Source: Oryzomicrobium sp.
GTDB taxonomy: Bacteria > Pseudomonadota > Gammaproteobacteria > Burkholderiales > Rhodocyclaceae
Direction: 5' to 3'
NCBI RefSeq assembly: GCF_021287045.1
Contig: NZ_JAJTBG010000011.1
Coordinates: 62,001 to 126,000 of the forward strand
Length of the DNA: 64,000 nt
Part shown: one piece after another, positions 22,786-45,277 of the stretch
How the letters are laid out: each line of letters starts with the position of its first letter
How positions within the stretch are numbered: the first letter of the stretch is position 1
Made by a program: the position numbers and the translations under genes
The notes under the pieces: generated by a model
Database searches by the model: none
What the model saw: only the letters and a program-made list of their open reading frames with translations
Told to the model about the DNA's origin: nothing

Positions 22786-22961
22786 TGAGCATCGAGATCA
22801 AGCAGATGGTGGTGAAGACCCAGGTCGTCCATTCCGCCGGGCCGGAAAACCGTGGCATGCCGGAAGAGGCGAAGCAAGCCGCCGAGCAGGAGCTGGGCCG
22901 CCTGCTTGACGAGTGCCGGCGCCTGCTTGCCGAGCTGCGCCGCGAGAAGCGGGAGCGCTGA
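22785..22961 (+). CDS. eCIS DUF5908 small protein (Pvc6/Afp6-like)
   Basis: 58-residue protein. The N-terminus MSIEIKQMVVKTQVV is the DUF5908 hallmark, followed by a charged helix (EEAKQAAEQELGRLLDECRRLLAELRREK) of likely coiled-coil character. It sits exactly where Pvc6/Afp6 is found, between the tube proteins and the LysM adaptor, with one base of overlap upstream and a 2-nt gap downstream. The molecular role in the family is not firmly known to me. Confidence 0.82.
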   Translation: MSIEIKQMVVKTQVVHSAGPENRGMPEEAKQAAEQELGRLLDECRRLLAELRREKRER

Positions 22962-22963
22962 CC

Positions 22964-23632: not shown

Positions 23633-23635
23633 GCC

Positions 23636-25426: not shown

Positions 25427-25437
25427 GGACGCCAGCC

Positions 25438-25737
25438 ATGCCCCCCGCCGCCCGCCTTACCGACATGCACACCTGCCCCATGCAGACGCCCGGCCTGCCG
25501 CCCATCCCCCATGTGGGCGGGCCGATCGTCGGCCCCGGGGTCCCCACGGTCCTGATCGGCAAGCTGCCGGCCGCCGTCGTCGGGGACAACTGCGTGTGCG
25601 TCGGCCCGCCCGACACCATCGCCATGGGGTCATCCACCGTGCTCATCAACAACCGCCCAGCCGCCCGCCTGGGCGATACCACGGCCCACGGCGGCAAGAT
25701 CGTGCTTGGCTGCTTCACCGTCATGATCGGAGGCTAG
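25438..25737 (+). CDS. eCIS PAAR-repeat spike tip (Pvc10/Afp10-like)
   Basis: 99-residue PAAR protein that caps and sharpens the spike. Pro/Gly-rich repeats are clear: PPAARLTDMHTC at the N-terminus and NNRPAARLGDTTAHGG near the end. Histidines and cysteines (H and C in the first repeat, C in NCVCVG, H in AHGG, C in VLGC) could bind the tip metal. No effector extension is fused. It lies 11 nt after the spike gene and 3 nt before the gp25 gene. Confidence 0.92.
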   Translation: MPPAARLTDMHTCPMQTPGLPPIPHVGGPIVGPGVPTVLIGKLPAAVVGDNCVCVGPPDTIAMGSSTVLINNRPAARLGDTTAHGGKIVLGCFTVMIGG

Positions 25738-25740
25738 GGC

Positions 25741-26157
25741 GTGGCCTCCGACGCTCCTTTCCTCGGTACCGGCTGGCGCTTCCCGCCGTCGTTCGACCAT
25801 GGCGGCCGGCGGGCGGCCATGACCTCGGGCGAGGACGACATCCGCGAAAGCCTGGCCATCCTGTTCGCCACGGCCCAGGGTGAGCGGGTCATGCAGCCCA
25901 CCTACGGCTGCGAACTGCGCGCCATGGTGTTCACCGTCATCGACGCCAGCGCCGTCACCGCCATCCAGGATGCCGTGCGCCGCGCCGTGCTGTTCTGCGA
26001 ACCCCGCATCGACCTGGAAAGCGTCGAGGTGGACGAAAGCCGCGCCGCCGAAGGAATCTTGCACCTGGACCTGGTCTACACGGTGAGGGGCACCAACACC
26101 CGCAGCAACATGGTCTATCCCTTCTACTTCCTGGAGGGGACCAGCCTGGTGCGTTAG
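25741..26157 (+). CDS. eCIS baseplate wedge protein (gp25/GPW family, Pvc9/Afp9-like)
   Basis: 138-residue gp25-like lysozyme-related baseplate protein that links the baseplate to the sheath. The EDDIRESLAILFATAQGERVMQPTYGCEL segment is the family signature. A GTG start is used; GGAGG lies about 10 nt upstream, inside the last codons of the PAAR gene. The order PAAR then gp25 is reversed relative to Afp/PVC, where gp25 comes first. Confidence 0.92.
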   Translation: MASDAPFLGTGWRFPPSFDHGGRRAAMTSGEDDIRESLAILFATAQGERVMQPTYGCELRAMVFTVIDASAVTAIQDAVRRAVLFCEPRIDLESVEVDESRAAEGILHLDLVYTVRGTNTRSNMVYPFYFLEGTSLVR

Positions 26158-26177: not shown

Positions 26178-29100
26178 ATGGGGATGACCATCCGCGACGG
26201 AACCAGCCAGCAGGACCGGGGACTACCGGCCCTGCAGCCGGGCTATTTCCGTCCCGACGAGATGGGCTTGCCCGAGCTTCTGTTCCTGGGGCAGCGCATC
26301 GCCCAGCAACTGCGCTACGTCGGGCCGGCCGGTGCGGAGGGTGACTGGCAACCCCTGTTCCTGGGTGACGAAAGCGCCCTGCTGGGCGGCATCCTGGTCG
26401 AGGCCCGGAAGCTGGCGGCCCTGCGCGGTTCTCTCCACGGGTTCGTCGATCGCATCCAGGCTCTGCTGCTGGGGGTGGCGCCTTGCCCCCTGCCCCAGGA
26501 CGTGCCGGCCTACCGGATCGCGGTCCGCATCCGGGACTGGTGGCTCTGGTGCGGCCAGAACGGCGGCGCCGAGGCCGGACGGCTGCACCAGTTGCTCGAC
26601 GGATTGCGCAAGACGGCCCTGGCCCCCGCGCTGGATGGCTTGACCACGTTCATGGCGCGTCACGACCGGGACCGAACCGTCTTGCTGCGGCAGCGCCTTG
26701 GCGCCGATTGGTGCCACGGCGGGGGCACGGTGCCTGCCCGCGACGCCCGGCCGGATGAGGTCGCCCACTTTCTCCGCGAAAATTTCCTGACCTTCGCCAG
26801 TGCTCTGGCGGTGGTCCGCAAGGCGGTGGAGACGGCCTTTCCCGAGTCCCTGCGCAGCGGTGCCCATGATCCTGCGGCGGGCCTCTACCTGGCCTTCGCC
26901 AATCTTTTCCTCAAGGCCAAGGGCGGCATCGACGATTTCAGCCAGCGCTACCAGGATTTCTACTATGAACGGGTGCTGGGGTTCGCCCCCCGGCCCATGG
27001 TCTCGGACCGGGCGGATCTGGTGCTGGCGCCGGACGGGGTGGCCCAGGATGTGGTGGTGGCCAAGGGGGCCATGTTCGTGGCTCGTGCCGGGGATGGCAG
27101 CGAGACTCTGTATGCCGCCGAGGACGAGTTGCGCGTGTGCAACGTCCGGGTCGCCGCCCTGCATACCCTGTTCTTCGACCGGGATCCCAACCGCTCGCCG
27201 GAGCGGGACCTGGGGTTCGCCACGGCCGCGACCACCAGCACCATCCCGGTAACGCCCGGCAAACGCTACTTCTCCCTCTTCGGCGCCGCCCGGCGCCTGG
27301 GCGGCGGGACGGCCGGGCAGCCCGCCCGCCTCGGCTTTGCCGTGTCGAGCCCGGTGCTGCGCCTGGAGGACGGCAGCCGGGACGTGCGTATCGCGCTGTA
27401 TTTCCAGGCGGGCCGCTACAACCTGGATGCCCTGGTAAAGAAAATCTGCGAGCTGGCGCCGGGGATGTCGCCGGAAGGGGCGTTCTTCCGGGCCTTCGCC
27501 AAGATGTTCCGGGTACGCGTGACCGTGCCGGAGGGCTGGGCGGAAGTCCCCGAATTCATCCCGAGCAGCAGCATCGTCTCGGGCGAAATTCCGCCCGACT
27601 GCCTGGAGATTGCCTTCAAGCTGCCGGAAACCTTTCCCCCGGTCGTGGATTACCGGCAGGAGGTGCATGGAGAGAACTTCGCCGCCGATTGCCCGGTGCT
27701 GAGCTTCACCATCGAGCCGGATGCCTACCTGTTCCCCTACGAGTTCCTGGCCGGCCTGACGGTTTTCGAGGCGCTGATCACCGTGGACGTCTCCGGCAGC
27801 CGCAAGCTCACCCTGTACAACAATCACGGGGCTCTCAACGCCACCAGCCCGTTCGTCCCCTTCGGCCCCCTGCCCAAGGTTGGTTCCCACCTGATCGTCG
27901 GTAGCCGGGAAGCCTTCGCCAAGAACCTGACCCGCCTGGGCCTGCGCATCAAATGGGACGACCTGCCTCCCGAGGGGCTGGCCCGCCACTACCGGGGATA
28001 TGGCGCGGGGATCGAAGCCGCGTCGTTCCGGGCCACCCTCTCGTCCCTGGACGAGCACGGCTGGCAACCGGTCAAGCCCGGGGAGCGCATCGAAATCCCG
28101 CTATGGGGCCAGGTCGATGCGCACGGCGCAGCCCGGTACGACTGCGCCCGGGTCCTGCCCTACCTCCATCCCAGCGAGGAGGGCGGGGAATACGGCCCCC
28201 ACGCCCGGGGCGGCTTCCTCAAGCTGACGCTGGCGGCGCCGGCCCAGGCCTTCGGCCACGCCAGCTATCCCTTGCTGCTGGCCCAGGCGTTCACCCGCAA
28301 TGCCCAGCGCGAGGCCCTGGGGCCCTTGCGCCGGCTGCTGGGGCGCTGGGCGGCGGCCGAGATACCCGAGCCGCCGTACACCCCGCTCGTCAGCGCCATT
28401 TCCCTGGATTACACCGCCCAGGCCAGCATTTCGCTCCGCCAGGGCGGTGTCGCGGCGTCCCGGGACCTGCTTCACCACCTCCATCCGTTCGGCGTCGACA
28501 CCCTGAAGCTCGACGCCCGGGGCGAGACGCGGCTGCTCCCCGTGGCGCCCCACGATGCCTCCTTGTTCATCGGCCTGGCCGCCGCCGAACTGGGCGGCCC
28601 GTTGAGCCTGCACTTCCACCTGCGGCCCGATTCGGACATGAACATCGACGCGCCGCGTCCCAGCTTCCGTTGGTACCACCTGCAACGTAACCGCTGGATT
28701 CCCCTGGAAGGCTTCCGCGTCCTGTCCGACTCGACCCGGGGGTTCCTGACCTCCGGCACCGTCAAGCTCGACCTTCCCCGGGACATGGACAAGGGCAACA
28801 CCGTCATGGATGACGGCCTGTTCTGGCTACGCCTGGGGGCCGACGGCCCGGTGGCCAGCCTGTGCAGCCTGCACGCTGTTCATGTCAATGGCGTCCGGGT
28901 GGCGCGGGTGCAGGGTTCCGGGGCCGCTGCGCCGGGCCCCTTGCCCGCTGGCAGCATCCAGGCGGCCAAGGTCACCATTCCCGGCGTGGCCGCCATCCTC
29001 CAGCCCGAAGCCTCGTTCGGCGGCCTGCCGCAGGAGGAGCGCGCCGCCATGGCGATCCGCGCCGGCGAGCGGCTCAAGCACCGGCAGCGCGCCGTCACTG

Positions 29101-29822
29101 CGTGGGACTACGAGCGCTTGGTGTTGCAGCAGTTTCCCCACCTGCACAAGGTCAAGTGCTTCATCAACACGTGTTTTTCGGTGGACCCGGCCCAGTGGCA
29201 CCGGCCGGGGCACGTGCTGGTGGCGGTCATTCCCCGTTGTCCCGAAGGCAGCGACAGCAGCGACCACCTCAAGGAAAACGTGCTGGTGCTCCAGGACATC
29301 AAGGACTACCTGGCGCCGCTGGCATCCCCCTTCGTGCAGATCGACGTGCGCAACCCGGTGATCGAGCGGGTGCAGGTCCGCTGCGCGGTGCGCTTCCGCA
29401 ACGGCGGGGCGCAGGGCCTGCTGATCAAGCAGTTCAACCGGGACATCGGCGAGTTCATCGCCCCCGGCGGTGTGGCGGGCAACAGCGCCAGTTTCGGCTG
29501 GTCGCTGCGCTGCCAGGAGCTACAGGGCTACCTTCAGGGTTTGCCCTACGTGGATTCCGTCTGGGGGCTGTCGCTGCTCCGGGTGGTCGAGGACGGCCAG
29601 GAGCGCTTTTCCTTGCACGACACCGCCCGGGAGGCCAAACACGGGCCGATGAACACCGGCCCCCTGTACCCCTGGAGCATCGTCCTGCCCTTCCGCCACC
29701 ACCTGGTGGACGTGGAGCGGGATGCGGCCGACGGGCCCGGGCCGTGGAAATCGGGAATCTCGCAGTTGCAGGTCGGCGCGACCTTCATCGTATCCAGGAA
29801 GCATCATGGCGAAAAAGAATAG
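26178..29822 (+). CDS. eCIS baseplate protein, baseplate J family (Pvc11/Afp11-like)
   Basis: Large baseplate wedge component of 1214 residues. The N-terminal ~250 residues are helical (FLTFASALAVVRKAVETAFP, AFANLFLKAKGGIDDFSQRYQDFYYE). The central part is beta-rich, and the C-terminal part carries the baseplate J pattern RAGERLKHRQRAVTAWDYERLVLQQFPHLHKVKCF followed by a gpJ-like end domain. It is longer than most Pvc11 proteins I recall, by a few hundred residues. A second ATG two codons in (MTIRDG) is an alternative start. The last 17 nt overlap the fibre-like gene. Confidence 0.87.
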   Translation: MGMTIRDGTSQQDRGLPALQPGYFRPDEMGLPELLFLGQRIAQQLRYVGPAGAEGDWQPLFLGDESALLGGILVEARKLAALRGSLHGFVDRIQALLLGVAPCPLPQDVPAYRIAVRIRDWWLWCGQNGGAEAGRLHQLLDGLRKTALAPALDGLTTFMARHDRDRTVLLRQRLGADWCHGGGTVPARDARPDEVAHFLRENFLTFASALAVVRKAVETAFPESLRSGAHDPAAGLYLAFANLFLKAKGGIDDFSQRYQDFYYERVLGFAPRPMVSDRADLVLAPDGVAQDVVVAKGAMFVARAGDGSETLYAAEDELRVCNVRVAALHTLFFDRDPNRSPERDLGFATAATTSTIPVTPGKRYFSLFGAARRLGGGTAGQPARLGFAVSSPVLRLEDGSRDVRIALYFQAGRYNLDALVKKICELAPGMSPEGAFFRAFAKMFRVRVTVPEGWAEVPEFIPSSSIVSGEIPPDCLEIAFKLPETFPPVVDYRQEVHGENFAADCPVLSFTIEPDAYLFPYEFLAGLTVFEALITVDVSGSRKLTLYNNHGALNATSPFVPFGPLPKVGSHLIVGSREAFAKNLTRLGLRIKWDDLPPEGLARHYRGYGAGIEAASFRATLSSLDEHGWQPVKPGERIEIPLWGQVDAHGAARYDCARVLPYLHPSEEGGEYGPHARGGFLKLTLAAPAQAFGHASYPLLLAQAFTRNAQREALGPLRRLLGRWAAAEIPEPPYTPLVSAISLDYTAQASISLRQGGVAASRDLLHHLHPFGVDTLKLDARGETRLLPVAPHDASLFIGLAAAELGGPLSLHFHLRPDSDMNIDAPRPSFRWYHLQRNRWIPLEGFRVLSDSTRGFLTSGTVKLDLPRDMDKGNTVMDDGLFWLRLGADGPVASLCSLHAVHVNGVRVARVQGSGAAAPGPLPAGSIQAAKVTIPGVAAILQPEASFGGLPQEERAAMAIRAGERLKHRQRAVTAWDYERLVLQQFPHLHKVKCFINTCFSVDPAQWHRPGHVLVAVIPRCPEGSDSSDHLKENVLVLQDIKDYLAPLASPFVQIDVRNPVIERVQVRCAVRFRNGGAQGLLIKQFNRDIGEFIAPGGVAGNSASFGWSLRCQELQGYLQGLPYVDSVWGLSLLRVVEDGQERFSLHDTAREAKHGPMNTGPLYPWSIVLPFRHHLVDVERDAADGPGPWKSGISQLQVGATFIVSRKHHGEKE

Positions 29823-30603
29823 AACGTCCCTCAAGCACGCCTTCAGCGAAGGTGCTCAGCCTTCCGCCGAGTCGTTCGCCGATCTGATCGATTCGGCGCT
29901 GAACGTGGTGGACGACGGTTTCGACCGCAGCGACGAGGACGGCTTCCGGGTCGCCCAGCTGGGCAAGACCGGCAAGCTGATCAGCTTCTTCGAGAACATC
30001 GCGGTACGGCGGCCGTCCTGGTTCATGCGCCTGAGCCAGGGAAGCCGGCGCCTCTTCTTCGGCAGCGAGAGCGAAAAGCCCGTGCTGACCCTGTCCTCCG
30101 AGACGGTGGGGGACCAGGAGGCGACCCGGGTCGGGATCAACAAGGCCGACCCGGCCCACGAACTCGACGTGGACGGAGTGGTGGCGGCCAAGGGGCGGAT
30201 CGGCAGCCGGGGGGCATCGGTCAAGGCCGATGGGCAGTGGCACGACATCGCCGGTCCCCTGGACGGTTGCCGGGCCTTCGAAGTCATGGCCGGCGTGGGC
30301 GACAAGGACGCCGGGCGCTACGCCCTGCTCCATGCCTTTGCCCTGAACACCTTCAACCGCAAGGGCCATGTCACGCCCCACCAGTCCTACTACGGCTCCC
30401 GGTGCGACCAGCTGGACCTGCGCTGGGTCGGCGACACCCATGCCTACACCTTGCAGCTGCGTACCCGCTGCGCCTACGGGGAGCACGTCGCCATCCAGTT
30501 CTACCTGACCGACCTCTGGTTCGATCCCTTCATGCGGGGCAGCGACATCCGGGCTGCCGGGGCGGCCCCCGGTGCCGCTCCTGCCGGTGCCAACGGGGGG
30601 TGA
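29806..30603 (+). CDS. eCIS fibre-like / receptor-binding candidate
   Basis: 265 residues. The N-terminus (NRTSLKHAFSEGAQPSAESFADLIDS) is the attachment motif common in tail-fibre and collar proteins. RVGINKADPAHELDVDGVVAAKG matches the linker that precedes fibre head domains with S74-like repeats. The C-terminal half (about 140-250: WHDIAGPLDGCRAFEVMAGVG, YALLHAFALNTFN, YYGSRCDQLDLRWVG, LQLRTRCAYG, YLTDLWFD) forms a compact beta-rich domain that could bind a target surface. It is much shorter than the Afp13/Pvc13 fibre, so particle targeting may be minimal or different. The start overlaps the baseplate J gene. Confidence 0.68.
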   Translation: MAKKNRTSLKHAFSEGAQPSAESFADLIDSALNVVDDGFDRSDEDGFRVAQLGKTGKLISFFENIAVRRPSWFMRLSQGSRRLFFGSESEKPVLTLSSETVGDQEATRVGINKADPAHELDVDGVVAAKGRIGSRGASVKADGQWHDIAGPLDGCRAFEVMAGVGDKDAGRYALLHAFALNTFNRKGHVTPHQSYYGSRCDQLDLRWVGDTHAYTLQLRTRCAYGEHVAIQFYLTDLWFDPFMRGSDIRAAGAAPGAAPAGANGG

Positions 30604-30613
30604 CGGGGTGGCC

Positions 30614-33049
30614 ATGACTCCGGCGGACCTGCCCTCCATCGCCCGGCGCCGGCCCGATCCGGCGGGGCTCGACTTCGACGGCCTGCGCCAGGCCGGCATC
30701 GATCAGTTGCAGGCCCTGTGCGGCGAGGTGTGGACCGACTACAACCTCCACGACCCCGGCGTCACCATGCTGGAGCAGCTGTGCTACGGCCTCACCGACG
30801 TGGTGTACCGCACGGGGTTCGCCACGGAGGACTACTTGTTCGGCGCCGACGGGCGCATCGACGGTCCGCGCCATGCCCTGTTGCCGCCGGAGGAGGCGTT
30901 GCCCTGCCGCCCCATGACCCCCGGGGATTACCGGCGACTGTTCGCCGACCAATTGCCCGAAATCCGCAACGTCTGGGTGGCGCCGTCGACCCAGCCTGGG
31001 CCGCCGGGGCGCCTGGATATCCACTTCCTGCTGGCGGACGACGTCGAGGCCGGCGCCGACGAGGCCGCCGAACTGATGCAGAAGGCCGCGGCGCTGTACC
31101 TGGAACACCGCAACCTGGGAGAAGACCTGGGCACGATCGGCTTGGTCGAGCAGGTGGACTACCGCCTGGTGGGCGAGATCGAGATTGACGGCGGACGGCC
31201 GGTGGCCGAAACCCTGGCCGATGTGTTTCTCGCCGCCCTGGCGATCATTTCGCCCCCCCTGGCGACGCGCCCCTACCACGAGGCGGCGGGTGAAGCGCCG
31301 GAATTGGTGTTCGAGGGCCCCTTGACCCGCCACGGCCGTATCGACGTGCCGGATTTCCGGCCCTGGAGCGCCTCGATCGTTTCCGAGCTGGTGCGGGCCG
31401 TGGCCGGCGTTGCCGGCGTCGGGCGGGTGGTGGCCCTCGACCTGGTGGACGACCAGGGGCAGGCCTACCGCCCGGTAGATGGCGATGCCGCCCTGCGCCG
31501 GATGCCCCGCCTGCGGCTGCCGGCCGGGGACGACGATCAGCGCCTGGTCCTGCGCTTGGCCGGCAAGATGCGCAACGTTCCGGTGGCCGAGTTCCGCGAT
31601 CGCCTGGCCCGGCTGGCCTTCGCCCTGGATACCCGCCGCCACGGCTGCCCCCCCTACGAGCCCGAATCGCCCCTGCCGACCGGTGTGCCGGCGGAGGCCA
31701 ACGCCTATACCTCGGTCCAGCACCACTTCCCGCCGGTATACGGCCTGGGCGATTACGGCGTGCCGGCTTCGGCCTCCCCCGAACGCAAGGCCCAGGCGCG
31801 GCAGTTGCAGGCCTACCTGGCGATCTTCGACCAGGTCATGGCCAATTTCATGCAGGGACTGGCCGGGTTGCCGGACCTCTATTCCCTGGACGAGGGGCTC
31901 GGCCGCACCTACTTCCAGCAGGTCCTGGGCAACCGGGACCTGCCGGGGATCGAACCCCTGTACAAGGGCGGGCGCCAGGGGGTCGACGCCGCCCTGGCGG
32001 CCACCCTGGCCGAGCTGGACGATTTCGGCGGGCGCCGTTCCCGCAGCCTGGACGTCCTGCTGGCCTTGCACGGCGAAAAATTCACCCAGGAATCCCTGCG
32101 CAACTTCGCCGCGCTGGCCGGCGATGCGCTGGAGGCGGCGTTGCTCCGCGACAAGATCGCCTTCGCCCGGCAGGCGCCGGAACTGAACGCCCGGCGCATG
32201 GGGGCATTCAACTACCGCCGTCCGGCAGGCCCCGACAACGTGCCGGCCCTGGCCGAGAAGGTCGGCCTGTTGCTGGGGCTCGATTCCCACGGCGGCACCC
32301 GGGTCTCGGGCCTGCTGAAGGAGCAGGGCTGGCGCTACGTCGCCGACCGGGACTTTTGCCGCGAGGCCGGCCTGGAGGCCATTCCGGCCAGCGCACTCGG
32401 CGGCGGCGACGCCGTGCCCCACCTGCCGGAGTTGGCCGAGCTGCCGGGCGGCTCCGGGGATGAGGCCCCAGTGCCGCCCGTGCTATGCCGTTCCTTGTTG
32501 AACGGTGGAGGCGATCTGGGCAATTACCGCATCGTCGGCGACGATGGCGACGTGCAACTGTGCTTCGCCCTGGAAGGGGCGGAAGGGGGCTGCCTGCTTT
32601 CCCGCCATGACAGCCGGGCGGATGCGGCGCGAGTCGCCAACCGCTTTGCCCAACGGATGGCGGCGCTGGTGCATGGCAGCATCGGCTTCCATCTCGTCGA
32701 GCACCTGCTGCTGTATCCCGGGCATCCTGGAAATGGGCAGGCGGTTGCCGCGGATCGGCAGGAGTTCTACGCCTTCCGCATCAGCGCCGTGTTTCCCGCC
32801 TGGTCGCCCCGGCTGGACAACCCGGAGTTCCGCAAGCTGGTCGAGGAAAGCTTCGCCCTGTGCTGCCCGGCCCACCTTCAGGTCGACGTGTTGTGGCTCG
32901 ATTTCGACCAGATGGCGATCTTCGAGGGCCTGCATGGCGATTGGCTGGCCCAGAAGCGCGAAGGCGACGCCGACAAGGCGGCCCGGGTGCTGGCCCTGTT
33001 TCTGCAACGCTGCGCCCGCAAGTCGGGCGAGCGGGGCCGGTGGATCTAG
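30614..33049 (+). CDS. eCIS baseplate protein (Pvc12/Afp12-like)
   Basis: Second large baseplate component, 811 residues. The N-terminal stretch GEVWTDYNLHDPGVTMLEQLCYGLTDVVYRTGF is a hallmark of this eCIS baseplate family. The C-terminal region has HGSIGFHLVEHLLLYPGHPG and FPAWSPRLDNPEFRKLVEESFALCCPAHLQVDVLWLDFDQM, also typical. I used ATG at 30614, directly after the fibre-like gene; a GTG just before it is possible. It ends 8 nt before the tape-measure gene. Confidence 0.87.
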   Translation: MTPADLPSIARRRPDPAGLDFDGLRQAGIDQLQALCGEVWTDYNLHDPGVTMLEQLCYGLTDVVYRTGFATEDYLFGADGRIDGPRHALLPPEEALPCRPMTPGDYRRLFADQLPEIRNVWVAPSTQPGPPGRLDIHFLLADDVEAGADEAAELMQKAAALYLEHRNLGEDLGTIGLVEQVDYRLVGEIEIDGGRPVAETLADVFLAALAIISPPLATRPYHEAAGEAPELVFEGPLTRHGRIDVPDFRPWSASIVSELVRAVAGVAGVGRVVALDLVDDQGQAYRPVDGDAALRRMPRLRLPAGDDDQRLVLRLAGKMRNVPVAEFRDRLARLAFALDTRRHGCPPYEPESPLPTGVPAEANAYTSVQHHFPPVYGLGDYGVPASASPERKAQARQLQAYLAIFDQVMANFMQGLAGLPDLYSLDEGLGRTYFQQVLGNRDLPGIEPLYKGGRQGVDAALAATLAELDDFGGRRSRSLDVLLALHGEKFTQESLRNFAALAGDALEAALLRDKIAFARQAPELNARRMGAFNYRRPAGPDNVPALAEKVGLLLGLDSHGGTRVSGLLKEQGWRYVADRDFCREAGLEAIPASALGGGDAVPHLPELAELPGGSGDEAPVPPVLCRSLLNGGGDLGNYRIVGDDGDVQLCFALEGAEGGCLLSRHDSRADAARVANRFAQRMAALVHGSIGFHLVEHLLLYPGHPGNGQAVAADRQEFYAFRISAVFPAWSPRLDNPEFRKLVEESFALCCPAHLQVDVLWLDFDQMAIFEGLHGDWLAQKREGDADKAARVLALFLQRCARKSGERGRWI

Positions 33050-33057
33050 GGGGCAGG

Positions 33058-36000
33058 ATGGGGCGCCGGCATTTCATCGACGAACTGCGCTTCGAAACCG
33101 GCATGGGGCCAGGCGTGGACGCGGACCAACCGCCCTGGAGCGACTGGCCCGGGCTGTGCCGCGACCGCCTGGCGGCCGTGATCGACAGCGTGTTCGACGG
33201 GCTGGATGTTCCCGCCGGCGCGATATGCGCGATCGACCGCCTGGAGGTCGATCTCGGCGAAGTGTCCGACCGGCTCACCCCCGATGAGCTGTGCACCCGC
33301 CTGGGGGATGCCCTGCGCCGCAGCCTGCGGGACAGGATCGCGGCCCTCCTGGAAGGGAGCGAAGACGGGGCCAGGATCATTCCCGGCCATGCCGCCGAGT
33401 TCGAACTGCTGGCCAGCTACCTGCAAAACGGCGTGCTGCCCTGGAATGTCCCCGGCGACGAGCCGTTCGCGCTGGCGGCCACACTCCTGCGCCAGGCCGG
33501 ACCGAACCGGCGGCGCCTGCTGGAGTTGCTGCGGCAGGACGCTGCGGTGCAGGAGCGGATGATCCGCCAGCTACAGGACCCGGAACTGGCGCAATGCCTG
33601 GCCCTGCTGTACCCCGGAAGCCGGGCCGAAGGCTCGGCCCGCCATTGGGACCGGGTCGCCCAGCGAGCGGCCTCGGCGCGGCGCGGTGATACCCGCTTCC
33701 GCATCTGGCGCGAGGCGATGCGCCTGGTGATCGATGATGCGTCCGCCGTGGATGCCGCCGTGCCGGTGGCGTCCGGCGGTGTGGACGGCGTGGGAAGGTC
33801 GGAAGGGCCGAGCGGCGGCTCCACAGGCGGTGGCGCGCGGCGGGCGGGCGCAGGTCCAGGGGCCGGAAAAGCATCGATGGCGCAACCGCCCGTGCTGTCC
33901 GGGGACGGGCGTGAGGACGCCGCTTCTCGGGCCTTGGCCTTACCGTTCCGCGAGGTGGGGGCATCGTCTCCGGATGGCACCATGCCTCAGGGAGAGCCGC
34001 CATCGCCGCAGCGGGCCGCTACGAGCGGCTCCAGCCGGGAGCCAGTGGTGAAGCTGGGGACGGTGGTGGGTAGTGCGGTCCATGCCCAGGAAATGAGCAA
34101 GCTGCACAGTGGCGGCAACACGGTGCCTGGCGTCGTGAATGTCACTGCGGGCGAGGGCGCGGTTTCCCCGCCGGCGATGGCCGCCCTGTCTACGTCCAGT
34201 GCTGCGGAGGTCGTGGCACGGGAACAGGCGGATGCTTCACCGCCGCAGGGGTCAGGGGATGTCGCACCGAGCCTTGCGGACCGTGCCGCAGATCTTCCCG
34301 TGGCCACCGGAACGGCGTGGGAGGACGATAGCCGGCATGGTGCGCCGCTGGCACGGCCGGATGGTTCTCAAGTGGGGGCCTCCTTCATTGCCGCTGGAGA
34401 GCATGGCCAGGGCGAGGCACTGGAGCGCCCGGCCTCCAGGGCCGTTGCTGCGCGGGAGAAAACACTGGAGCCTGGGGCGGCTCAACTCGCCACTGCCGCC
34501 GCCCCGGCCGCCAGCCGTCGAAACGATCAAGCTGATCCAGCCGGGCAGCCTGGCGACCAGGGCCCGGTAGTCGAGAGCGCCGATGTACGAGAGGAGCAGC
34601 GCACTCCTGTGGCAGAAGTGGTAGAGGCGCAGGGCGCGGAGGCATCGCCGTTTTCCGCCCCGGCAGCCTTGGGAGGGGGCCAGGGGCGGCTGGATGCGAA
34701 AGCGCTGGGGGCGCCGCTCGCGCCATCGAATCGGGGCGGAACCGATGTCCCGCAAGTGGTCGTAGGCACGACGGTAGCTGTCCCCGTAGTTCCAGGACCA
34801 GAAACGGCGGCGGAGCAAGAAGCGGGGCAACCCGAAGGTCAGGAGCCTGGGCGCCCCCTCGGCATGGGCCGTGACGAGGATGGGGGCGGCGTCGCTGGCG
34901 TATCGAAGGCAGCCATTTCCGGTGGAGCGGCCCCCCTCGCCTCTGGGCAAGCCATGCCTCCGGCTGTCGCGGCGATTCTGCCCCTGACCGGATCGTCCGC
35001 CGTTTCCCGAGACGTGGCGTCCGGGGAGTCCGCCGCTTCCGCATCGATGCGGCCTCTGCCAATCCACGACGTGGGCAATGAGGGGAAACTCCACCTCTCG
35101 GATGCAGGGCGCATGGCTTCGTCGGCGGAACGGGGCGCGGTGGGGAGTGGGCCTCGACAGGATTCCGCGCTGCCGATCGAGGCAGGAGCTGGGCTTGCTG
35201 CCACGCCTCAGCTTTCACCCCAATCCCAGTCTCGATCCCGGCCGGCTGCATCCCAGGCGGACGTAGGCGGAGCCGGGGAGGGCGGTGCTCCGTGGGCCGC
35301 TGATTCACGGGTACAGACTCCTGGCGGCACGGGCTCCGCGTCAGCACACGACCTCGGCTCTCCGTCCGGTCATGCCTTGCCAGCTTCCTGCGTGGACGCG
35401 GCGCAGCGCCAGCGGCTTCTGGCGGCAGGAGGTGCCGCTACAGCATCCGGCCACGGGGCTACCATGGCAAGCGCCCCGGTTCGGGCGGTGGAAGCGGGGG
35501 AGCGCGGGATGAACGCCGTTGGCGCCCGCGATGGTCAAGGATCGGTGCTGCCCGGCGAAATCGGGCGGCCCCCTGTTACCGTCCCTTCGCCTGGCGTTGA
35601 GTCGTTACCGGCGTTCAACCAAGGGGCGACGAGTACTACGCGTGGAACGCCGTTACCGGCCAGGCCGGGCGATGGCGTCATCCCCGCAAGCCCGGCGCCG
35701 CGCGTTGCTTCCGGCGACATGGCGCTAGAAGAAGCGCCACGATCGGTCGGCGCAACCGCCAACCCGCCAGGAGCGGCAACGGATGGCCTGGGGGGCGATC
35801 AAGCGCGACTTCCCGGCGGCGCTACGATTCCCTCCGATTCTCCGCCCGGTCTTGGCCAAGGGCGCGATGGTGTGCTGCCCACGACTGGAGCTGGGTACCT
35901 GCCGGTAGACGCCGCTGCGGCACATGGTGAGCCTGCGGTGGCGGGGGGGCAGCGCCCCGACCTTTCCCCGGGCGAAGGCGCTTTGCCGTCTGTGATGGGG

Positions 36001-39000
36001 CGCCCGGATGCGCCTGACCTCCCGATGCTCGGTGGCGCGCGCGCCATGCTAGGCGCCCCCCGAGCATGGGACGCTCCTTCTTCCGAGGGGCTGGTGAGGA
36101 AAGGGGGAGGCCAGGAGACGCGGCGGGGTGGCATGGCTGCCATGCCGGGCGATGTTGAGGGGGGCCAGGCCGCTCAGCAGCCCACGGCAAAGGTGCCCGG
36201 GAGGGCAGGCGCCGGTCCAAGGGAAGCAACCGCCGGCAACGCCGCTCTGGTGACTGCGGCCGGGCGGGGGATGCCGGAATCCGGGAGGGCGGACCGAGCG
36301 TCCGGCGGCCCTTCGTCTGGAGCCGCCGACCGCGCTGCTGCCGGTGCCGCTTTTCAAGCGCCAGCGGATGAGTCCATGCCCTTTGCACAAGGGGGCGGCG
36401 GAAAGCAGGGTGAGTCCACCGCCGGGAATGGGCGGGCGACGCCCCATGGCGATGCGCCGAGGAGTGCTCCGGCGGGAACTGGTGCGCCATCGTTTGCGCA
36501 ACACGCGTTGCCCAGGACTGATGAGCACGCCACCCGACCACGGGATGTGAAGCCGCCGTCGGCAGACGTGGCATTGCCGGGAGGGGCAGGGCGGCAACGG
36601 ACCGCCCCTCTGGGCGCCGTGGAAGGGGAGGACACCCTTCCGCAGCAAGATCGGAGCACTGCTTCTGGAGCCGGGCGACCCGACGCGGCGGCTGCCGTGC
36701 CGGGTAGGGAAGTCCGTGCGCCGGAGGGGGCGGCACCTGCTGCTTCAGCGTCGATGCCGATGACGGCTCATGGTGATGTGATGCCCACGCTACCGGAAAT
36801 CTCGCTACCGGGAACCTCGCGGCCGCCTCCAGTGGAAAATCTCGGGGGTCCGAGGGAGGTTCCGGCACCTTGGCCGCCCGTGGCTGAGTCGCCGCCGGAG
36901 GACGTTGCCGCGACCGATGCGCCCGGGGCGCGACGAGACGATTCTCTCGGTGCAGCCGAGGAGCGCCTGCCCGTATTGCACGGGGAGGTGAAAGCATCGC
37001 TGGGCAGGGGAGCGAAGGAAGCGGAAGCGCGTACGGTCCCCACTCCCACGCAGGCGGGCGCGATGACGCATGGGCCAGGAAGGACGGAATCCGCGCTACC
37101 GGCCGCTACGGGCAGCTCAGAGGTTGGCTCAGAGGTTGGCGGCCATGAGCCGCCAGGGACGGTAATGCTGCTGCCGGAAGGCGGAGCGACGATCGGTTCG
37201 CCGGGGCAGCAACGCATCCCCCCTCCTGGTCCTCAGAAGGGGGATGCCGCCCTTCGACGGAACGGCGTTGAAGAACCGAATCCGAACCCTGCTTTCGGGC
37301 CGGGGCGGTCCGAAGCCGCGCCCGTATTGCCGGGCGGAACTGTGCGGGAGGTGGAAGGCTCGGCGCCTTCCGCCTCCGTGCAGGGTGCGGCGGCACGGAC
37401 TGGTGCTGTGTCCGTACCCCCGGCCGGCCTGTTCCCGCCGTCGGCGGCAACGGGTGGGCCGGAGGAACCACGTCATGGGTCTCCGCCGCAGGAGCGCGCA
37501 TCGCAGCCAGAGGGCGAGGCGGCGCCTGGGAAATTGGGGAGTGCCCCGCTGACGCATCGCACTGGCGGCGGGTTACGCCAGGAGGCTCCGGCCCCCGTTG
37601 CCCTGTCCCCGCTGACTTCGGCATCGGCATCAATGTCCGGCCGCGGCAGCGACAGTAAGGCGAGGCCAGGAGCGGCGTTATCGGATGTCGCGGAGCAAAC
37701 CTCGCCGCATCCCGCGGCCGACGGCAAAACCGCGATGCCCTCGGGCACGCTTGCCGCCGAGGGGGACGCCTTAACGTTGCGGCCCCCATCGGACGGGACC
37801 ACGGAAAGGTCCGCCGTAGCGCCGGGTGAGGAGCGGGATGAAAGCTCGTCTGTGGCGGCGGGACCACGGGTCGGCCCGGCGGCGCTCATCCCCAGCGTGG
37901 GCGCCGTTGCCGCCATGGCGGGCGCTGTCGATCGACGCGGAGTGGAAGAGAAAGTGAGCCCGGCGGGTGGCGACGAAGCGGTGGAGCCGACAGCCCCGCT
38001 GTCCGTATCCGCCATGCCAGGCGATGCCGCATCGGGTACTGCGCCTGTGGAGCGCTCCATAGCGCGGCCCATGCGCAACCCCATCGGGGGGAGCGAGCGG
38101 CCTGCCGCCGTTTCTGCCGCGGATAGGGCATCCCCGGCTGGGGGAGCGGCAGAGGGGCATGGCGCCATTCCTCCTGATCCGGTTGGCAAAGGACTGTCTG
38201 CCGGGCCCGGAGTGGAAGAGAGAGTGAGCCCGGCTGACGGCGGCGGGGTGGCGGAGCCGACGGCCCCGCCGTCCGCATCCGCCATGCCAGGCGATGCCGC
38301 ATCGGGTACTGCGCCTGTGGAGCGCTCCATGGCGCGGCCCATGCGCAACCCCATCGGGGGGAGCGAGCGGCCTGCCGCCGTTTCTGCCGCGGATAGGGCA
38401 TCCCCGGCTGGGGGAGCGGCAGAGGGGCATGGCGCCATTCCTCCTGATCCGGTTGGCAAAGGACTGTCTGCCGGGCCCGGAGTGGAAGAGGGCGTGAGCC
38501 CGACGGGTAGCGACGGAGCAGCGGAGCCGACAGCCTCGTCGTCCGCACCTGCCATGCCCGGGGATGATGCATCGGGTGCAGCGCCTGTGGAGCGCACCAT
38601 GGCGCTGCCCACGCCTGATCTCGTCGGGGGGGGCGAGCGGGCTGCTGCCGTCTCCACTGCGGACAGGGCATCCCCGGCTGGGCTGGCGGTGGAGGGGCAT
38701 GGCGCCGTTCCTCAAGGGCTATCTGCCGGGCCTGAACGCTCCAGAGGGGGGCGGCTGGATGCGGCGCTTGGCGGTGCGCCGACGGCAAAGTCCGGGGAGG
38801 GGCAGCGTTTTTCTTCGGCCAATTCAACGGCACCCTCGGGAGCCTCCGTGGTGCCCGTTGGGGAAATCGACGCACAGGTCGTTCCCCGGCAAGCAACGCC
38901 GACAAGAGGGGTGCCCGAATCGGAGGTCGGCCGGGGCGATGAACGCCATGCCGGCCTTGCCGTAACCGCGGCAACCACTGCAATTGCCGAGGGCGCTACT

Positions 39001-40197
39001 GCCGAGCCAAGCCGTGGGGCAATCGCGTCTGTCGCTGCCTCGCCGGCGGGAGGGGCGACCATGTCGGTCCCCGGTGCGGGGCTGGGGAGCCCGGCCACCG
39101 GAAACACCACCGGGGCGGAGTCAGGAATGGTCTCCGATTCCGCCGGCCGCCATTCCTCTCCGCCGGCCGCGTCTACCGCTGCTCAACCTGAACCGCTTCC
39201 CGATTCCGCCTGGATCGAGCACGCCCTGGAAAACGATCCGAACGGCCTCGAGGCCGTGCTCCTGCCCCTGTTGGAGAGCCGGGTTGGCGCGGCGCGATTG
39301 ATTGAGGCGTGCCCGGATGCCCTGCTGTCCCGCCTGGCCCACTATTTCCGCGGGGCGGATTTTTCCCGGCTGCTGCCCTATGCCGAGGCGGTTACCGCCG
39401 CCAACCTGGGGATGGGCGAGGCCGAGCGCCGCCGCCGCCATTGGCGTTTCCTGCTGGGGACCTTGTTCCCGAAGGTGCGCTTCGCTTCCGCCGCGCCCTT
39501 CGTCAGCGCCTACATCGATTTCCTGGCGGCGGACTGGCCGGCGCCGGGCGATGCGCGCCAGGCCCTGCGTGCGTACCTGGAGTCGGCGGCGGCGCCGGGC
39601 ATGGTGACGCGCCACATCCTGTTCTGGCTGGGGGGCAAGGGCGGCGCGTCGGCCCCCGGTGCGGTGCCATCGGCGCCGCCGGCTCCGCTGGCGGGGCGGG
39701 GCATCCAGGTGGCCAATGCCGGCCAGGTTTTGGCCTCCCCCTACCTGCCCCGGCTGTTCTCCATGCTGGGCTTGCTGGAACAGGGTCGCTTCATCGACGG
39801 CGAGAATGCCCGGCGGGCCTGCCATCTCCTCCAGTTCATGGTGGACGAGCGATGCGCTGCGCCCGAGCACGAGCTGGCCCTCAACAAGCTGCTGTGCGGG
39901 CTGGAGTTGCACGAGCCCCTGGATGCCGGGATCGAGATCGACGAGCGGGAACGCTCCGCCATCGACGGCATGCTCGCCAGCATGATCGCGCACTGGAAGG
40001 CCCTGGGCGGCACCTCGGTGGCCGGGCTGCGCGAAGCCTTCCTGCAGCGCGGCGGGGGATTGTCCCGCCAGGACGACGCCTGGCGGTTGAAAGTGGAGCC
40101 AAAGACCATCGACGTGCTGATGGATCGGCTGCCCTGGGGCTTTTCGGTGATCCGCCATCCGTGGATGGCGGCACCGGTAATGGTGGAGTGGCGATGA
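33058..40197 (+). CDS. Giant eCIS tape-measure protein with a long low-complexity insert (Pvc14/Afp14-like)
   Basis: 2379 residues. The N-terminal domain (about 1-225) starts RRHFIDELRFETGMG and has helices such as LRDRIAALLEG and LLASYLQNGVLPW. The C-terminal domain (about 2050-2379) shows VANAGQVLASPYLPRLFSMLGLLEQGRF, PEHELALNKLLCGL, TSVAGLREAFLQR and LPWGFSVIRHPWM, which match the CIS tape-measure family well. Between them lie about 1,800 residues rich in Ala, Gly, Pro, Ser, Glu and Arg with almost no hydrophobic clusters. This stretch includes a 270-bp tandem repeat at 37942-38740. The frame stays open over 7.1 kb. The family sets tube length in Afp; here the insert may lengthen the tube, stay disordered, or act in the lumen. 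The end overlaps the ATPase gene by ATGA. Confidence 0.87.
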   Translation: MGRRHFIDELRFETGMGPGVDADQPPWSDWPGLCRDRLAAVIDSVFDGLDVPAGAICAIDRLEVDLGEVSDRLTPDELCTRLGDALRRSLRDRIAALLEGSEDGARIIPGHAAEFELLASYLQNGVLPWNVPGDEPFALAATLLRQAGPNRRRLLELLRQDAAVQERMIRQLQDPELAQCLALLYPGSRAEGSARHWDRVAQRAASARRGDTRFRIWREAMRLVIDDASAVDAAVPVASGGVDGVGRSEGPSGGSTGGGARRAGAGPGAGKASMAQPPVLSGDGREDAASRALALPFREVGASSPDGTMPQGEPPSPQRAATSGSSREPVVKLGTVVGSAVHAQEMSKLHSGGNTVPGVVNVTAGEGAVSPPAMAALSTSSAAEVVAREQADASPPQGSGDVAPSLADRAADLPVATGTAWEDDSRHGAPLARPDGSQVGASFIAAGEHGQGEALERPASRAVAAREKTLEPGAAQLATAAAPAASRRNDQADPAGQPGDQGPVVESADVREEQRTPVAEVVEAQGAEASPFSAPAALGGGQGRLDAKALGAPLAPSNRGGTDVPQVVVGTTVAVPVVPGPETAAEQEAGQPEGQEPGRPLGMGRDEDGGGVAGVSKAAISGGAAPLASGQAMPPAVAAILPLTGSSAVSRDVASGESAASASMRPLPIHDVGNEGKLHLSDAGRMASSAERGAVGSGPRQDSALPIEAGAGLAATPQLSPQSQSRSRPAASQADVGGAGEGGAPWAADSRVQTPGGTGSASAHDLGSPSGHALPASCVDAAQRQRLLAAGGAATASGHGATMASAPVRAVEAGERGMNAVGARDGQGSVLPGEIGRPPVTVPSPGVESLPAFNQGATSTTRGTPLPARPGDGVIPASPAPRVASGDMALEEAPRSVGATANPPGAATDGLGGDQARLPGGATIPSDSPPGLGQGRDGVLPTTGAGYLPVDAAAAHGEPAVAGGQRPDLSPGEGALPSVMGRPDAPDLPMLGGARAMLGAPRAWDAPSSEGLVRKGGGQETRRGGMAAMPGDVEGGQAAQQPTAKVPGRAGAGPREATAGNAALVTAAGRGMPESGRADRASGGPSSGAADRAAAGAAFQAPADESMPFAQGGGGKQGESTAGNGRATPHGDAPRSAPAGTGAPSFAQHALPRTDEHATRPRDVKPPSADVALPGGAGRQRTAPLGAVEGEDTLPQQDRSTASGAGRPDAAAAVPGREVRAPEGAAPAASASMPMTAHGDVMPTLPEISLPGTSRPPPVENLGGPREVPAPWPPVAESPPEDVAATDAPGARRDDSLGAAEERLPVLHGEVKASLGRGAKEAEARTVPTPTQAGAMTHGPGRTESALPAATGSSEVGSEVGGHEPPGTVMLLPEGGATIGSPGQQRIPPPGPQKGDAALRRNGVEEPNPNPAFGPGRSEAAPVLPGGTVREVEGSAPSASVQGAAARTGAVSVPPAGLFPPSAATGGPEEPRHGSPPQERASQPEGEAAPGKLGSAPLTHRTGGGLRQEAPAPVALSPLTSASASMSGRGSDSKARPGAALSDVAEQTSPHPAADGKTAMPSGTLAAEGDALTLRPPSDGTTERSAVAPGEERDESSSVAAGPRVGPAALIPSVGAVAAMAGAVDRRGVEEKVSPAGGDEAVEPTAPLSVSAMPGDAASGTAPVERSIARPMRNPIGGSERPAAVSAADRASPAGGAAEGHGAIPPDPVGKGLSAGPGVEERVSPADGGGVAEPTAPPSASAMPGDAASGTAPVERSMARPMRNPIGGSERPAAVSAADRASPAGGAAEGHGAIPPDPVGKGLSAGPGVEEGVSPTGSDGAAEPTASSSAPAMPGDDASGAAPVERTMALPTPDLVGGGERAAAVSTADRASPAGLAVEGHGAVPQGLSAGPERSRGGRLDAALGGAPTAKSGEGQRFSSANSTAPSGASVVPVGEIDAQVVPRQATPTRGVPESEVGRGDERHAGLAVTAATTAIAEGATAEPSRGAIASVAASPAGGATMSVPGAGLGSPATGNTTGAESGMVSDSAGRHSSPPAASTAAQPEPLPDSAWIEHALENDPNGLEAVLLPLLESRVGAARLIEACPDALLSRLAHYFRGADFSRLLPYAEAVTAANLGMGEAERRRRHWRFLLGTLFPKVRFASAAPFVSAYIDFLAADWPAPGDARQALRAYLESAAAPGMVTRHILFWLGGKGGASAPGAVPSAPPAPLAGRGIQVANAGQVLASPYLPRLFSMLGLLEQGRFIDGENARRACHLLQFMVDERCAAPEHELALNKLLCGLELHEPLDAGIEIDERERSAIDGMLASMIAHWKALGGTSVAGLREAFLQRGGGLSRQDDAWRLKVEPKTIDVLMDRLPWGFSVIRHPWMAAPVMVEWR
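37942..38740 (+). repeat. Three tandem 270-bp repeats inside the tape-measure gene
   Basis: Units begin at 37942, 38212 and 38482, each with GTGGAAGAG. Copies 1 and 2 are nearly identical over long runs. Copy 3 is more diverged and lacks about seven codons near its end. The period of 90 codons keeps the frame. Unit motifs in protein are MPGDAASG, APVER and RASPAGGAAEGHGA. Confidence 0.9.
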
Positions 40198-41579
40198 CGG
40201 CCATCACGATGCAGAAACGGGAACCCCGGACCGCCTCCTGGCCCGGGGACGACAACGCGGCGATCCTGTCCGGGGAGCTGGACTGGTTCTCCAAGGTGCT
40301 CGAAACGCGCCTGACCGCCTATTTCGAGCAGCGCCCCTGGGGGCTCGACGACCTGCCCCCGCCGGACCTGACGGCGGCGCAGGGCGCCTACGCCGAACTG
40401 GTTCGGGAGCTGGACATGAGCGCCGAGGAGCGGCTGGTGCTGCTTCTGGCCCTCATCCCTCACGTTCGTCCCCAGGCGCTGGACCCGCTGTTCACCCGCA
40501 ACCGGGCGCTGGAGCGGGCCTTCACCGAGTTCGGCGGCTGGCCGGGGAAGAACCACGGTGGCTTTCTGCCGACCTGCGAGACGGCGCTGTTCGTTGCGGC
40601 CGGCACCGACCTGGAGCGGCGCTTCCGCATGATCCCGCTGTTCGAGAACGATCATTTCTTCGCCCGCCGGGGCATCCTGCGCCTGGAGCACGGCGAGCGG
40701 GCCGAGACCCTGTTCAGCAGCGCCCTCACCCTGAGCGGCGAATATCTGCACCTGCTCATCGCCGGCACCCGGCACAAGCCCGATTTCAGCGCCACCTTTC
40801 CGGCCAAGCTGATCACCACGCCCCTGGGGTGGCAGGACCTGGTGCTGGGGCCCCAGGTCCTCGAAGAGGTGGGGCACCTCCAGACCTGGCTGGAGCGGGG
40901 GCCCGAGGTGATGCGCGAGTGGGGGTTGGAGCGCTCCGTCAAGCCGGGCTACCGGGCCCTGTTCTACGGGCCGCCGGGCACCGGCAAGACCCTGACGGCG
41001 ACCCTGATCGGCGCCAGCGCCGGGGTGGACGTGTACCGCATCGACCTGTCCATGGTCGTTTCCAAGTACATCGGCGAGACCGAGAAGAACCTGGCCGGCG
41101 TTTTCGACCAGGCGGCGAACAAGAACTGGGTGCTGTTCTTCGACGAGGCCGACGCCCTGTTCGGGCGCCGCACCCAGACGTCGAATTCCAACGACCGCCA
41201 CGCCAACCAGGAGGTGGCCTACCTCCTGCAACGCATCGAGGATTTCCCCGGCATGGTGGTCCTGGCCACCAACCTGCGCGCCAACATCGACGAGGCCTTT
41301 GCCCGGCGCTTCCAGTCCGCCATCTATTTCCCCCTGCCGGATGCCGAGCAGCGCCTGCGGCTGTGGCACGGCATGCTCGACCCTGCCACCCGCCTGGCGG
41401 ACGACGTGGATCTGGCCCGGATCGCCGCCGACCATCCTCTGGCCGGCGGGGCCATCGCCAACGTGGCGCGCTACGCGGTGTTGCGCGCCTTACAGCGCAA
41501 GCGGGCCCGCGTGTGCAGCGACGACCTGCTGGCGGGCATCGCCCGGGAACGCTTCAAAGAAGGAAAGTCCATCGCATGA
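40194..41579 (+). CDS. eCIS AAA+ ATPase (Pvc15/Afp15-like)
   Basis: 461-residue ATPase needed for assembly or effector loading in characterised eCIS. The N-terminal ~225 residues are the family-specific domain (ELDWFSKVLETRLTAYF, GFLPTCETALFV). The AAA+ core has Walker A GPPGTGKT at residues 259-266, Walker B VLFFDEAD at about 313-320, and sensor/arginine-finger region (VLATNLRANIDEAFARRFQSAIYF). ATGA overlaps join it to the tape-measure gene upstream and the membrane protein downstream, so the three are translated together. Confidence 0.92.
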   Translation: MTAITMQKREPRTASWPGDDNAAILSGELDWFSKVLETRLTAYFEQRPWGLDDLPPPDLTAAQGAYAELVRELDMSAEERLVLLLALIPHVRPQALDPLFTRNRALERAFTEFGGWPGKNHGGFLPTCETALFVAAGTDLERRFRMIPLFENDHFFARRGILRLEHGERAETLFSSALTLSGEYLHLLIAGTRHKPDFSATFPAKLITTPLGWQDLVLGPQVLEEVGHLQTWLERGPEVMREWGLERSVKPGYRALFYGPPGTGKTLTATLIGASAGVDVYRIDLSMVVSKYIGETEKNLAGVFDQAANKNWVLFFDEADALFGRRTQTSNSNDRHANQEVAYLLQRIEDFPGMVVLATNLRANIDEAFARRFQSAIYFPLPDAEQRLRLWHGMLDPATRLADDVDLARIAADHPLAGGAIANVARYAVLRALQRKRARVCSDDLLAGIARERFKEGKSIA

Positions 41580-44476: not shown

Positions 44477-44548
44477 CCCGGCAAGCGCTTCCTTGTCCTT
44501 TTACCACCTGTGCCATCCCATTCACGCCTCGAACCCTGGAGTAACGCC

Positions 44549-45277
44549 ATGCGGGCCTACAGCGAAAAACCGATGACATCCTCCGTTTCTACCGAGCATG
44601 AGCGCCGCCAAGGCGACAGCCACGTTTCCGCTGGCGGCGGACGGGAGGCGGGGCTCCAGGCTTTGCAGGCCAAGGCCGATGGGAGCCTGGCGGTAAGGCA
44701 GCTGGCCGCCCTCCAGCCGGATGGGGTGTCGCAGCGCCAGGCCGAAGAAGAGGACGAGGCCCCTATGCAGGCCAAGACCGCCCAGTTGCAGGCCGACGAC
44801 GAGGAGCCGCTGCAGGGCCGCTTCGATCCGCTGCAACGGGTGGCGGCGGACGAGGACGAGGTCCAGCGCAAGGCGGCTACGGGCGCCAGTCAGGCCCCCG
44901 TAGCTACAGGTGCCGCCGGCAGGAATGAGACGGGGCTGCCCGATTCCCTGAAAACGGGCATCGAGGCCCTGTCCGGCATTTCCCTGGATTCGGTGCGGGT
45001 GCATTACAACTCCTCCCAGCCGGCCCAGCTCAATGCCTTGGCCTACGCGCAGGGCAGCGACATCCACGTCGCCCCGGGCCAGGAGCGCCACCTGCCCCAC
45101 GAGGCTTGGCACGTGGTGCAGCAGGCCCAGGGGCGGGTGAGCCCCACCCTGCACACCGGCGGCGTACCCGTGAATGACGAGGTGGCCCTGGAACAGGAGG
45201 CCGACGCGATGGGCGGGCGGGCCAGCCAATACAAGGGGCCGGCCGTGCAAGCGAAGCGGGGCGGGCAGGACCGGTGA
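44549..45277 (+). CDS. DUF4157 (eCIS core domain) protein, possible effector
   Basis: 242 residues. The N-terminal ~130 residues are hydrophilic and acidic with repeated Gln-containing motifs (LQALQAK, MQAK, PLQR, VQRKAA). A DUF4157 domain follows (about 135-225): [52 protein letters not shown]184-E-A-W-H188 is a zincin-type HExxH, so peptidase activity is possible. DUF4157 proteins are strongly associated with eCIS loci and often carry toxins; no toxin domain is attached after the core here, just ~20 residues (VQAKRG). GGAG precedes the ATG. It is the last gene of the locus. Confidence 0.82.

Follow-up and report, generated by a model that had tools for sequence, protein, structure and literature searches.

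An eCIS cluster with a long tape-measure gene

The stretch of DNA analysed here (the window, 64,000 nucleotides) carries an eCIS cluster that spans positions 18779 to 45277, in which a tape-measure gene sits beside baseplate and AAA ATPase genes. The following features were assigned:

18779..19375, + strand: Pvc16-type cap (tube terminator); PF14065, E 2.2e-32
20232..21779, + strand: contractile sheath, the cluster's single detected one; PF17482 above cut-off, PF04984 slightly under it; PDB 9r9h, E 1.6e-197
21820-22269 and 22327-22785, + strand: two gp19-type inner-tube proteins; PF06841; the first matches PDB 9r9h_B, Afp1 and Pvc1
22785..26157, + strand: DUF5908, CIS_tube, VgrG-like spike, PAAR tip and gp25 wedge genes; family matches
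26178..29822, + strand: Afp11-like baseplate J protein; matches to PDB 9rce_A, Pvc11 and Afp11; TIGR02243 below its cut-off
30572..33049, + strand: Afp12-like baseplate protein, directly upstream of the tape-measure gene; PDB chains SalCis12 (E 7e-59), Algo12, Pvc12 and Afp12
33058..40197, + strand: CIS_TMP (Afp14-family) tape-measure gene, 2,379 residues; open frame; Pfam PF19268, E 5.7e-96
40194..41579, + strand: AAA ATPase, Afp15/Pvc15-like by place and family; PF00004, E 1.3e-29
44510..45277, + strand: eCIS_core protein, likely cargo; PF13699, E 1.9e-9

The closest solved sheath, PDB 9r9h, is 59% identical to that of the window and is also present in 9rce, the entry with a chain named SalCis12; the 9r9h/9rce sheath is a useful structural template for the window sheath. 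Two other proteins are encoded inside the cluster. One, of 913 residues (41735-44476), is 57% identical in the sister locus described below; it lacks a match in Pfam, and those in NCBIfam are weak and sub-threshold. The other, of 265 residues (19368-20165, between the cap and sheath genes), matches no family or PDB entry; its position invites the guess that it is a cap adaptor comparable to Alg16B in AlgoCIS.

The tape-measure gene starts with an ATG at 33058, immediately preceded by a purine-rich tract, and stops with a TGA at 40197. The list of open reading frames opens the same frame at a GTG (32860). Such a start would run into the upstream gene, and the Pfam CIS_TMP match begins just past the ATG. 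Downstream, the ATG of the ATPase gene overlaps the tape-measure stop codon as ATGA, and this overlap suggests that the translation of the two genes may be coupled.

The tape-measure protein scored 323 bits against PF19268 (curated cut-off 27.8). The match falls into two pieces, at ~33067-33723 and ~39208-40191 (~547 residues combined), which cover PF19268 positions 1-216 and then 137-463, ordered from N to C in a single frame of 2,528 codons from stop to stop, without stops. The C-terminal domain also matches the contractile injection system tape measure protein of pADAP (29.8% identity over query residues 168-328, E 1e-9). The pADAP protein has 535 residues and its gene precedes an AAA ATPase gene; by this position in the cluster we take it to be Afp14. 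All together, the two matches support the assignment of the window gene to the Afp tape-measure family, as the first-pass annotation had proposed, and the ~550 residues that it allotted to the conserved ends agree with the ~547 found. A search of the window's genome returned no second CIS_TMP, and no solved structure matched the C domain convincingly (best E 0.4). The protein can be divided as follows:

33067..33744, + strand: N-terminal conserved part, i.e. the N end and the first helical module, to residue ~229; PF19268 positions 1-216, module HMM residues ~78-229
33745..39168, + strand: low-complexity, disordered-looking insert of ~1,800 residues; low-hydrophobic runs, no stops, Cys/Trp/Tyr depleted, no helical periodicity
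39169..39468, + strand: second (last) helical module, directly before the C-terminal domain; module HMM, core residues 2035-2134
39703..40191, + strand: C-terminal conserved domain, ~163 residues; HMM built in this analysis and alignment

In the anatomy read from the sequence, the insert follows a single N-terminal module and is followed by a single module ahead of the C-terminal domain.

Composition and constraint of the insert

The insert consists mainly of Ala (19.1%), Gly (15.2%), Pro (12.1%), Ser (9.2%), Val (6.8%), Arg (6.4%) and Glu (6.2%), with 17% hydrophobic residues and a net charge of -53. Low-hydrophobic runs, briefly interrupted, span residues 228 to 2050: at a threshold of our choice (22% in a sliding frame of 61 residues), 1,737 of the 2,376 core residues were low-hydrophobic, compared with 0-59 in ten other proteins of the cluster. 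Helical periodicity is absent (z -1.6), helicity being read here and below from this periodicity z. From composition, judged on a disorder scale, and missing periodicity, we infer a disordered middle of ~1,800 residues.

The reading frame of the insert is intact to a degree that its composition does not explain. No stop occurs in 1,790 codons, where 21.6 would be expected from the insert's own codon-position composition (P ~4e-10); 500 shuffles of the insert gave 11-36 stops each, and the remaining five frames contain 15-33. Cys, Trp and Tyr occur only 1, 4 and 1 times (~18, 15 and 13 expected); Phe is undepleted (10 against 11.6 expected). The composition and the missing stops bear out the earlier description of an Ala/Gly/Pro/Ser/Glu/Arg middle, disordered-looking and kept in frame over 5.4 kb. 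Codon use is relaxed: GC3 is 0.68, as opposed to 0.82-0.93 in the other eCIS genes, and the codons GCA and GCT occur several times as often as in seven eCIS stretches taken from the window.

We considered other origins for this sequence. A frameshifted ancestral module was rejected because the GC contents of the three codon positions (0.78, 0.67 and 0.68) are not a shifted form of the usual pattern, and a gene on the opposite strand because each antisense frame has 15-23 stops. A hidden domain was likewise rejected: no family match above cut-off was found inside the insert in Pfam, NCBIfam or PHROGs (for PHROGs, none to the whole tape-measure protein at E 0.01), and the Pfam scan at E 0.1 returned a DUF1206 match at E 0.035, below that family's own cut-off. 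One further feature was found by a search for repeats of 24 bases or more:

37938..38747, + strand: tandem repeat within the insert, three copies of 270 bp (90 residues); repeat search

The only other repeats detected in the insert were two arrays of ~30 bp, so that an insert made of repeats was also rejected. Copy 1 of the 270-bp unit shares 95% identity with copy 2 and 74% with copy 3. Between the first two copies there are 9 nonsynonymous and 4 synonymous changes (pN 0.047, pS 0.052), which, at 13 differences, is weak evidence; comparing both with copy 3 gave a pN of 0.23-0.25 and a pS of 0.31-0.36, an indel lying within the stretch compared. Since stops are missing, Cys, Trp and Tyr are depleted, codon use is relaxed and pN is close to pS, the insert seems to be held to its frame and composition, with little constraint on its sequence.

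Tape measures of related loci

Counting the window's own genome in both samples, CIS_TMP was detected in 27 of 395 genomes of the same family, 25 of them over cut-off, and in 10 of 369 genomes sampled from the class. The genome-wide scan is biased in that its patterns came from an alignment of five sequences that were themselves long or cut forms; 80 of 90 relatives were kept. In the same family, frames with both ends have 494-760 codons, with the exception of the window (2,528 from stop to stop) and of one genome, G003 (1,528). Of the 99 open frames in which the C domain was present, the 74 that joined it to the N end were counted (72 distinct ones, among them the window's), leaving out frames cut by contig ends, broken, C-only or without a full N match. 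Among the 71 distinct relatives so defined, 56 exceed 1,000 residues and 15 are shorter; the window protein is the longest of the 72. Ten rows labelled Nitrosomonas lie between 1,074 and 1,894 residues, and five Chitinophaga rows, which are close kin, between 1,229 and 1,239. Viral contigs held no further close relatives.

A module profile, built in this analysis from the N part, revealed how the long relatives are made: they carry up to eight copies of a helical module of ~150 residues, and by regression each further module adds 146 residues to the tape (r 0.80; 67 of 74 rows, the seven of the disordered groups being excluded and one duplicate remaining). The window protein has no such tandem-module middle, its two modules being confined to its ends. 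The periodicity z was 0.6 to 7.1 in 11 helical relatives and -2.0 and -0.5 in two Myxococcus inserts, which thus also lack helical periodicity. Low-hydrophobic residues number 1,737 in the window, 947 in its sister, 930, 804, 769 and 761 in the Myxococcus tapes and 410 or fewer in the rest.

The sister, the closest relative found, is the tape of Rhodocyclaceae bacterium CTSoil_117 (locus L046, taken as the same contig as G003:C38, since both give an identical frame of 1,528 codons). It resembles the window protein in its two modules and its disordered-looking, Ala/Pro/Gly-rich middle; it differs in its length, ~850 residues fewer, and in a relic of the helical module (41 residues, 1034-1074 of its frame, iE 6e-9) kept in the spacer, of which no counterpart was found in the window insert at E 10. 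The two loci are 91% (main) and 68% identical in their tube proteins, 77% in the sheath, 46% in the N part of the tape and 59% in its C part. Their inserts have no detectable similarity: the Smith-Waterman score was 351, the mean of shuffled sequences 362, and 78 of 100 shuffles scored as high, compared with scores of 430 and 931 for the N and C parts (shuffled ~36 and ~39). Insert length among close relatives, a check proposed in the first-pass annotation, came to ~940 residues in the sister and ~1,800 here. The sister insert shows the same relaxed codon tendency in weaker form (GC3 0.76, 0.91 in its C part). Its periodicity z of 1.7 overlaps the weakest helical relatives; its absolute power is 12.3, and 18.7-28.4 in all eleven of them.

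In a tree of the 163-residue C domain, the window and sister tapes form a pair (support 98) within a branch otherwise composed mostly of long helical tapes. The Afp comparison of the first-pass annotation is corrected here, the short pADAP protein (535 residues) not being the nearest one. The eCIS tapes of Myxococcus (L077, L081, L085 and L086) share a disordered middle, here Ser/Pro-rich and with 761-930 low-hydrophobic residues, but have three modules before the disordered stretch and are placed elsewhere in the tree. Disorder thus likely arose twice, in the window/sister pair and in Myxococcus, as the tree separates the two groups; this falls short of proof, because a single clade for both was not rejected (AU p 0.17). 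The unusual feature of the window tape is the replacement of modules by disorder, in the window and one sister, more than its length.

Some loci depart from the usual arrangement. An Azospirillum thermophilum plasmid (L044:10835-12507) has one annotated gene for the N part of the tape and another, next to it, for the C part; this could represent a split gene or a frameshift. Stand-alone C-terminal CIS_TMP domains occur in the same family as the window at L147:10302-10901 (200 codons) and L148:9947-10495 (183 codons), with no N part within the 20-kb stretch around them; the L147 gene directly adjoins a sheath-like gene, and both loci look orphan or minimal. At L050, L061, L066 and L071 the frame seems broken between the N and C parts, possibly by assembly errors, since the records appear to be metagenome-derived and have repeated modules. 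In Nitrosomonas supralitoralis (L058, residues 595-1382), three motif matches are evenly spaced (353 residues) with the same E-value, which suggests a recent tandem duplication of its helical modules. The tape of another relative of the same family (L033:16653-17612) looks helical by eye past its N part, and its contig ends within the gene.

A proposed disordered ruler and its alternatives

The likeliest mechanism, to which we give a probability of about 0.4, is a disordered ruler, closer in kind to FliK with its disordered linker than to the coiled-coil tapes of phages. In this reading, the chain of folded modules found in relatives has been replaced by ~1,800 residues that drift fast in sequence and are intrinsically disordered; such a replacement is suggested because the pair lies among mostly long helical tapes, has two modules and, in the sister, keeps a relic. 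The conserved ends of the tape would dock at the baseplate end of the growing tube and at its cap/terminator end, and the spacer would be stretched out inside the tube lumen, where its residue number would still limit tube growth until the cap engages. The middle would thus be a spacer whose amount, not sequence, counts, and the particles are predicted to be ~250-450 nm long, well over ~100 nm. The stricter proposal that the 1,800 residues act unstructured, as an entropic ruler in place of a helical tape, with a particle of ~250-450 nm, several times the 92-nm AlgoCIS trunk, is plausible but less likely than not.

Precedents exist for the parts of this mechanism. Afp14 is described as a regulator of Afp length (PMC10066040), a review has the tape measure fix tube length by scaffolding (PMC10598620), and deleting parts of the disordered linker of FliK is reported to shorten the hook (PMC6972891). 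For a scale, AlgoCIS is given a sheath of 92.4 nm and a tube whose lumen measures 3.6 nm across and 90.2 nm in length (PMC8894135). Nine calibration loci were read, the tape of AlgoCIS itself not among them, whose sheath fragments share 51-61% identity with Alg2; a tape was found in 8 of the 9, with 487-606 codons, which together with the AlgoCIS sheath length gives an indirect value of ~0.15-0.19 nm per residue. With assumed constants, a confined-polymer estimate places the insert at 236 nm for one chain, 341 nm for three and 430 nm for six, and by dry volume the same numbers of copies of the window protein would fill 28, 84 and 169 nm of a tube of AlgoCIS width. Six copies are therefore excluded inside a 90-nm tube of that width, and with three, cargo would have hardly any space left. 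Against the mechanism, the inner surface of the AlgoCIS tube is described as negative (PMC8894135) and the window insert is net negative too, and the authors of the PVC work classed pvc14 as accessory rather than structural.

Several observations argue against a ruler. The sister tape is ~850 residues shorter although its main tube protein is 91% identical, so that length is either very evolvable or irrelevant; the Nitrosomonas-labelled tapes also vary widely; and the adjacent Azospirillum genes and the C-only loci, one of them beside a sheath gene, suggest that a covalent ruler may not be universal. All of these fit at least as well with a second reading, the main rival, which we regard as a serious possibility: the folded ends alone would matter, joined by a nearly neutral disordered tether that is kept in frame and soluble, with length set by the cap, the ends or the subunit supply. 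The dissimilar, length-labile inserts of the pair, the relaxed codon use and a pN close to pS in repeat copies 1 and 2 (somewhat below it with copy 3) are what such a linker would produce. Less easily accommodated are the reported role of Afp14 in Afp length (PMC10066040), the recurrence of long middles over the branch, the steady length of the five Chitinophaga tapes, close kin as they are, and the cost of keeping a useless insert of 5.4 kb free of stops.

The chain might instead fill the lumen or tether cargo for the AAA ATPase without setting length, as filler, cargo matrix or loading factor. The ATGA overlap with the ATPase gene would suit such a role, as would the loading of PVC cargo through disordered N-terminal signals with the aid of Pvc15, as described in PMC11495950; by dry volume, two chains would occupy ~60% of an AlgoCIS-size lumen. 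A filled lumen would, however, compete with cargo, the insert and the lumen surface are both negative, and no family match above cut-off was found in the insert; we consider this role unlikely. Very improbable is an ejected activity within the insert, an effector or membrane-active region of the kind proposed for the tape-measure-related effectors of Streptomyces (PMC11126660, PMC13277306), given no Pfam, NCBIfam or PHROGs match above cut-off (DUF1206 being sub-threshold), the low share of hydrophobic residues and the dissimilarity to the sister's insert. An assembly artefact or a pseudogene, in which the middle is not a true translated insert, is hardly credible. The tandem repeat might be miscounted and GC3 is unusual, but the repeat accounts for only ~0.8 of 5.4 kb, both conserved ends share one frame, and 1,790 codons free of stops with biased amino-acid use are not what an artefact would leave; an assembly error, one of the refuting cases named in the first-pass annotation, is also unlikely because the separately assembled sister genome has an identical architecture.

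Returning to the disordered ruler, as long as every tape is helical one cannot easily tell whether length follows residue number, helix length or the ends alone. The window/sister lineage offers a natural test, in which the fold of the middle has changed, the ends are kept and tapes ~850 residues apart serve main tubes that are 91% identical. If residue number rather than fold sets length, disordered and helical tapes would be interchangeable in evolution, and disordered chains could be used as simple length spacers in contractile nanoparticles.

On intrinsic disorder in the tape measures of contractile injection systems, our literature search turned up only phage work; the eCIS literature, searched for tape measures and Afp14 rather than for disorder itself and with few subscription papers covered, contained no disordered or unusually long tape. 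Afp14 of Serratia entomophila, compared through the pADAP protein, and Pvc14, placed here by family, belong to the same CIS_TMP family (PF19268), but the pADAP protein has 535 residues and the window protein 2,379 with a disordered middle. The long helical CIS_TMPs of Nitrosomonas, Burkholderiales, Chromatiaceae, Bacteroidota and others share the N and C parts and mostly measure 1,000-1,900 residues; they differ in their repeats of the ~150-residue module and in a hydrophobic fraction of ~0.26-0.41 in most rows, compared with 0.17 here. The tape of diffocin is described as length-setting and as lying in the tube lumen (PMC11329794), a role only predicted for the window protein; it is a coiled-coil trimer (PMC11329794), whereas the window middle lacks helical periodicity. 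FliK has two functional ends and a disordered, proline-containing linker that is part of its ruler (PMC6972891). The likeness is one of architecture: FliK belongs to another machine, the Salmonella protein has 405 residues (PMC6972891), and a Pfam scan of the window protein at E 0.1 returned CIS_TMP and the sub-threshold DUF1206 and no FliK-type match. A two-ended tape measure is thus already known; what we judge to be new is a middle that has switched from folded repeats to a disordered chain.
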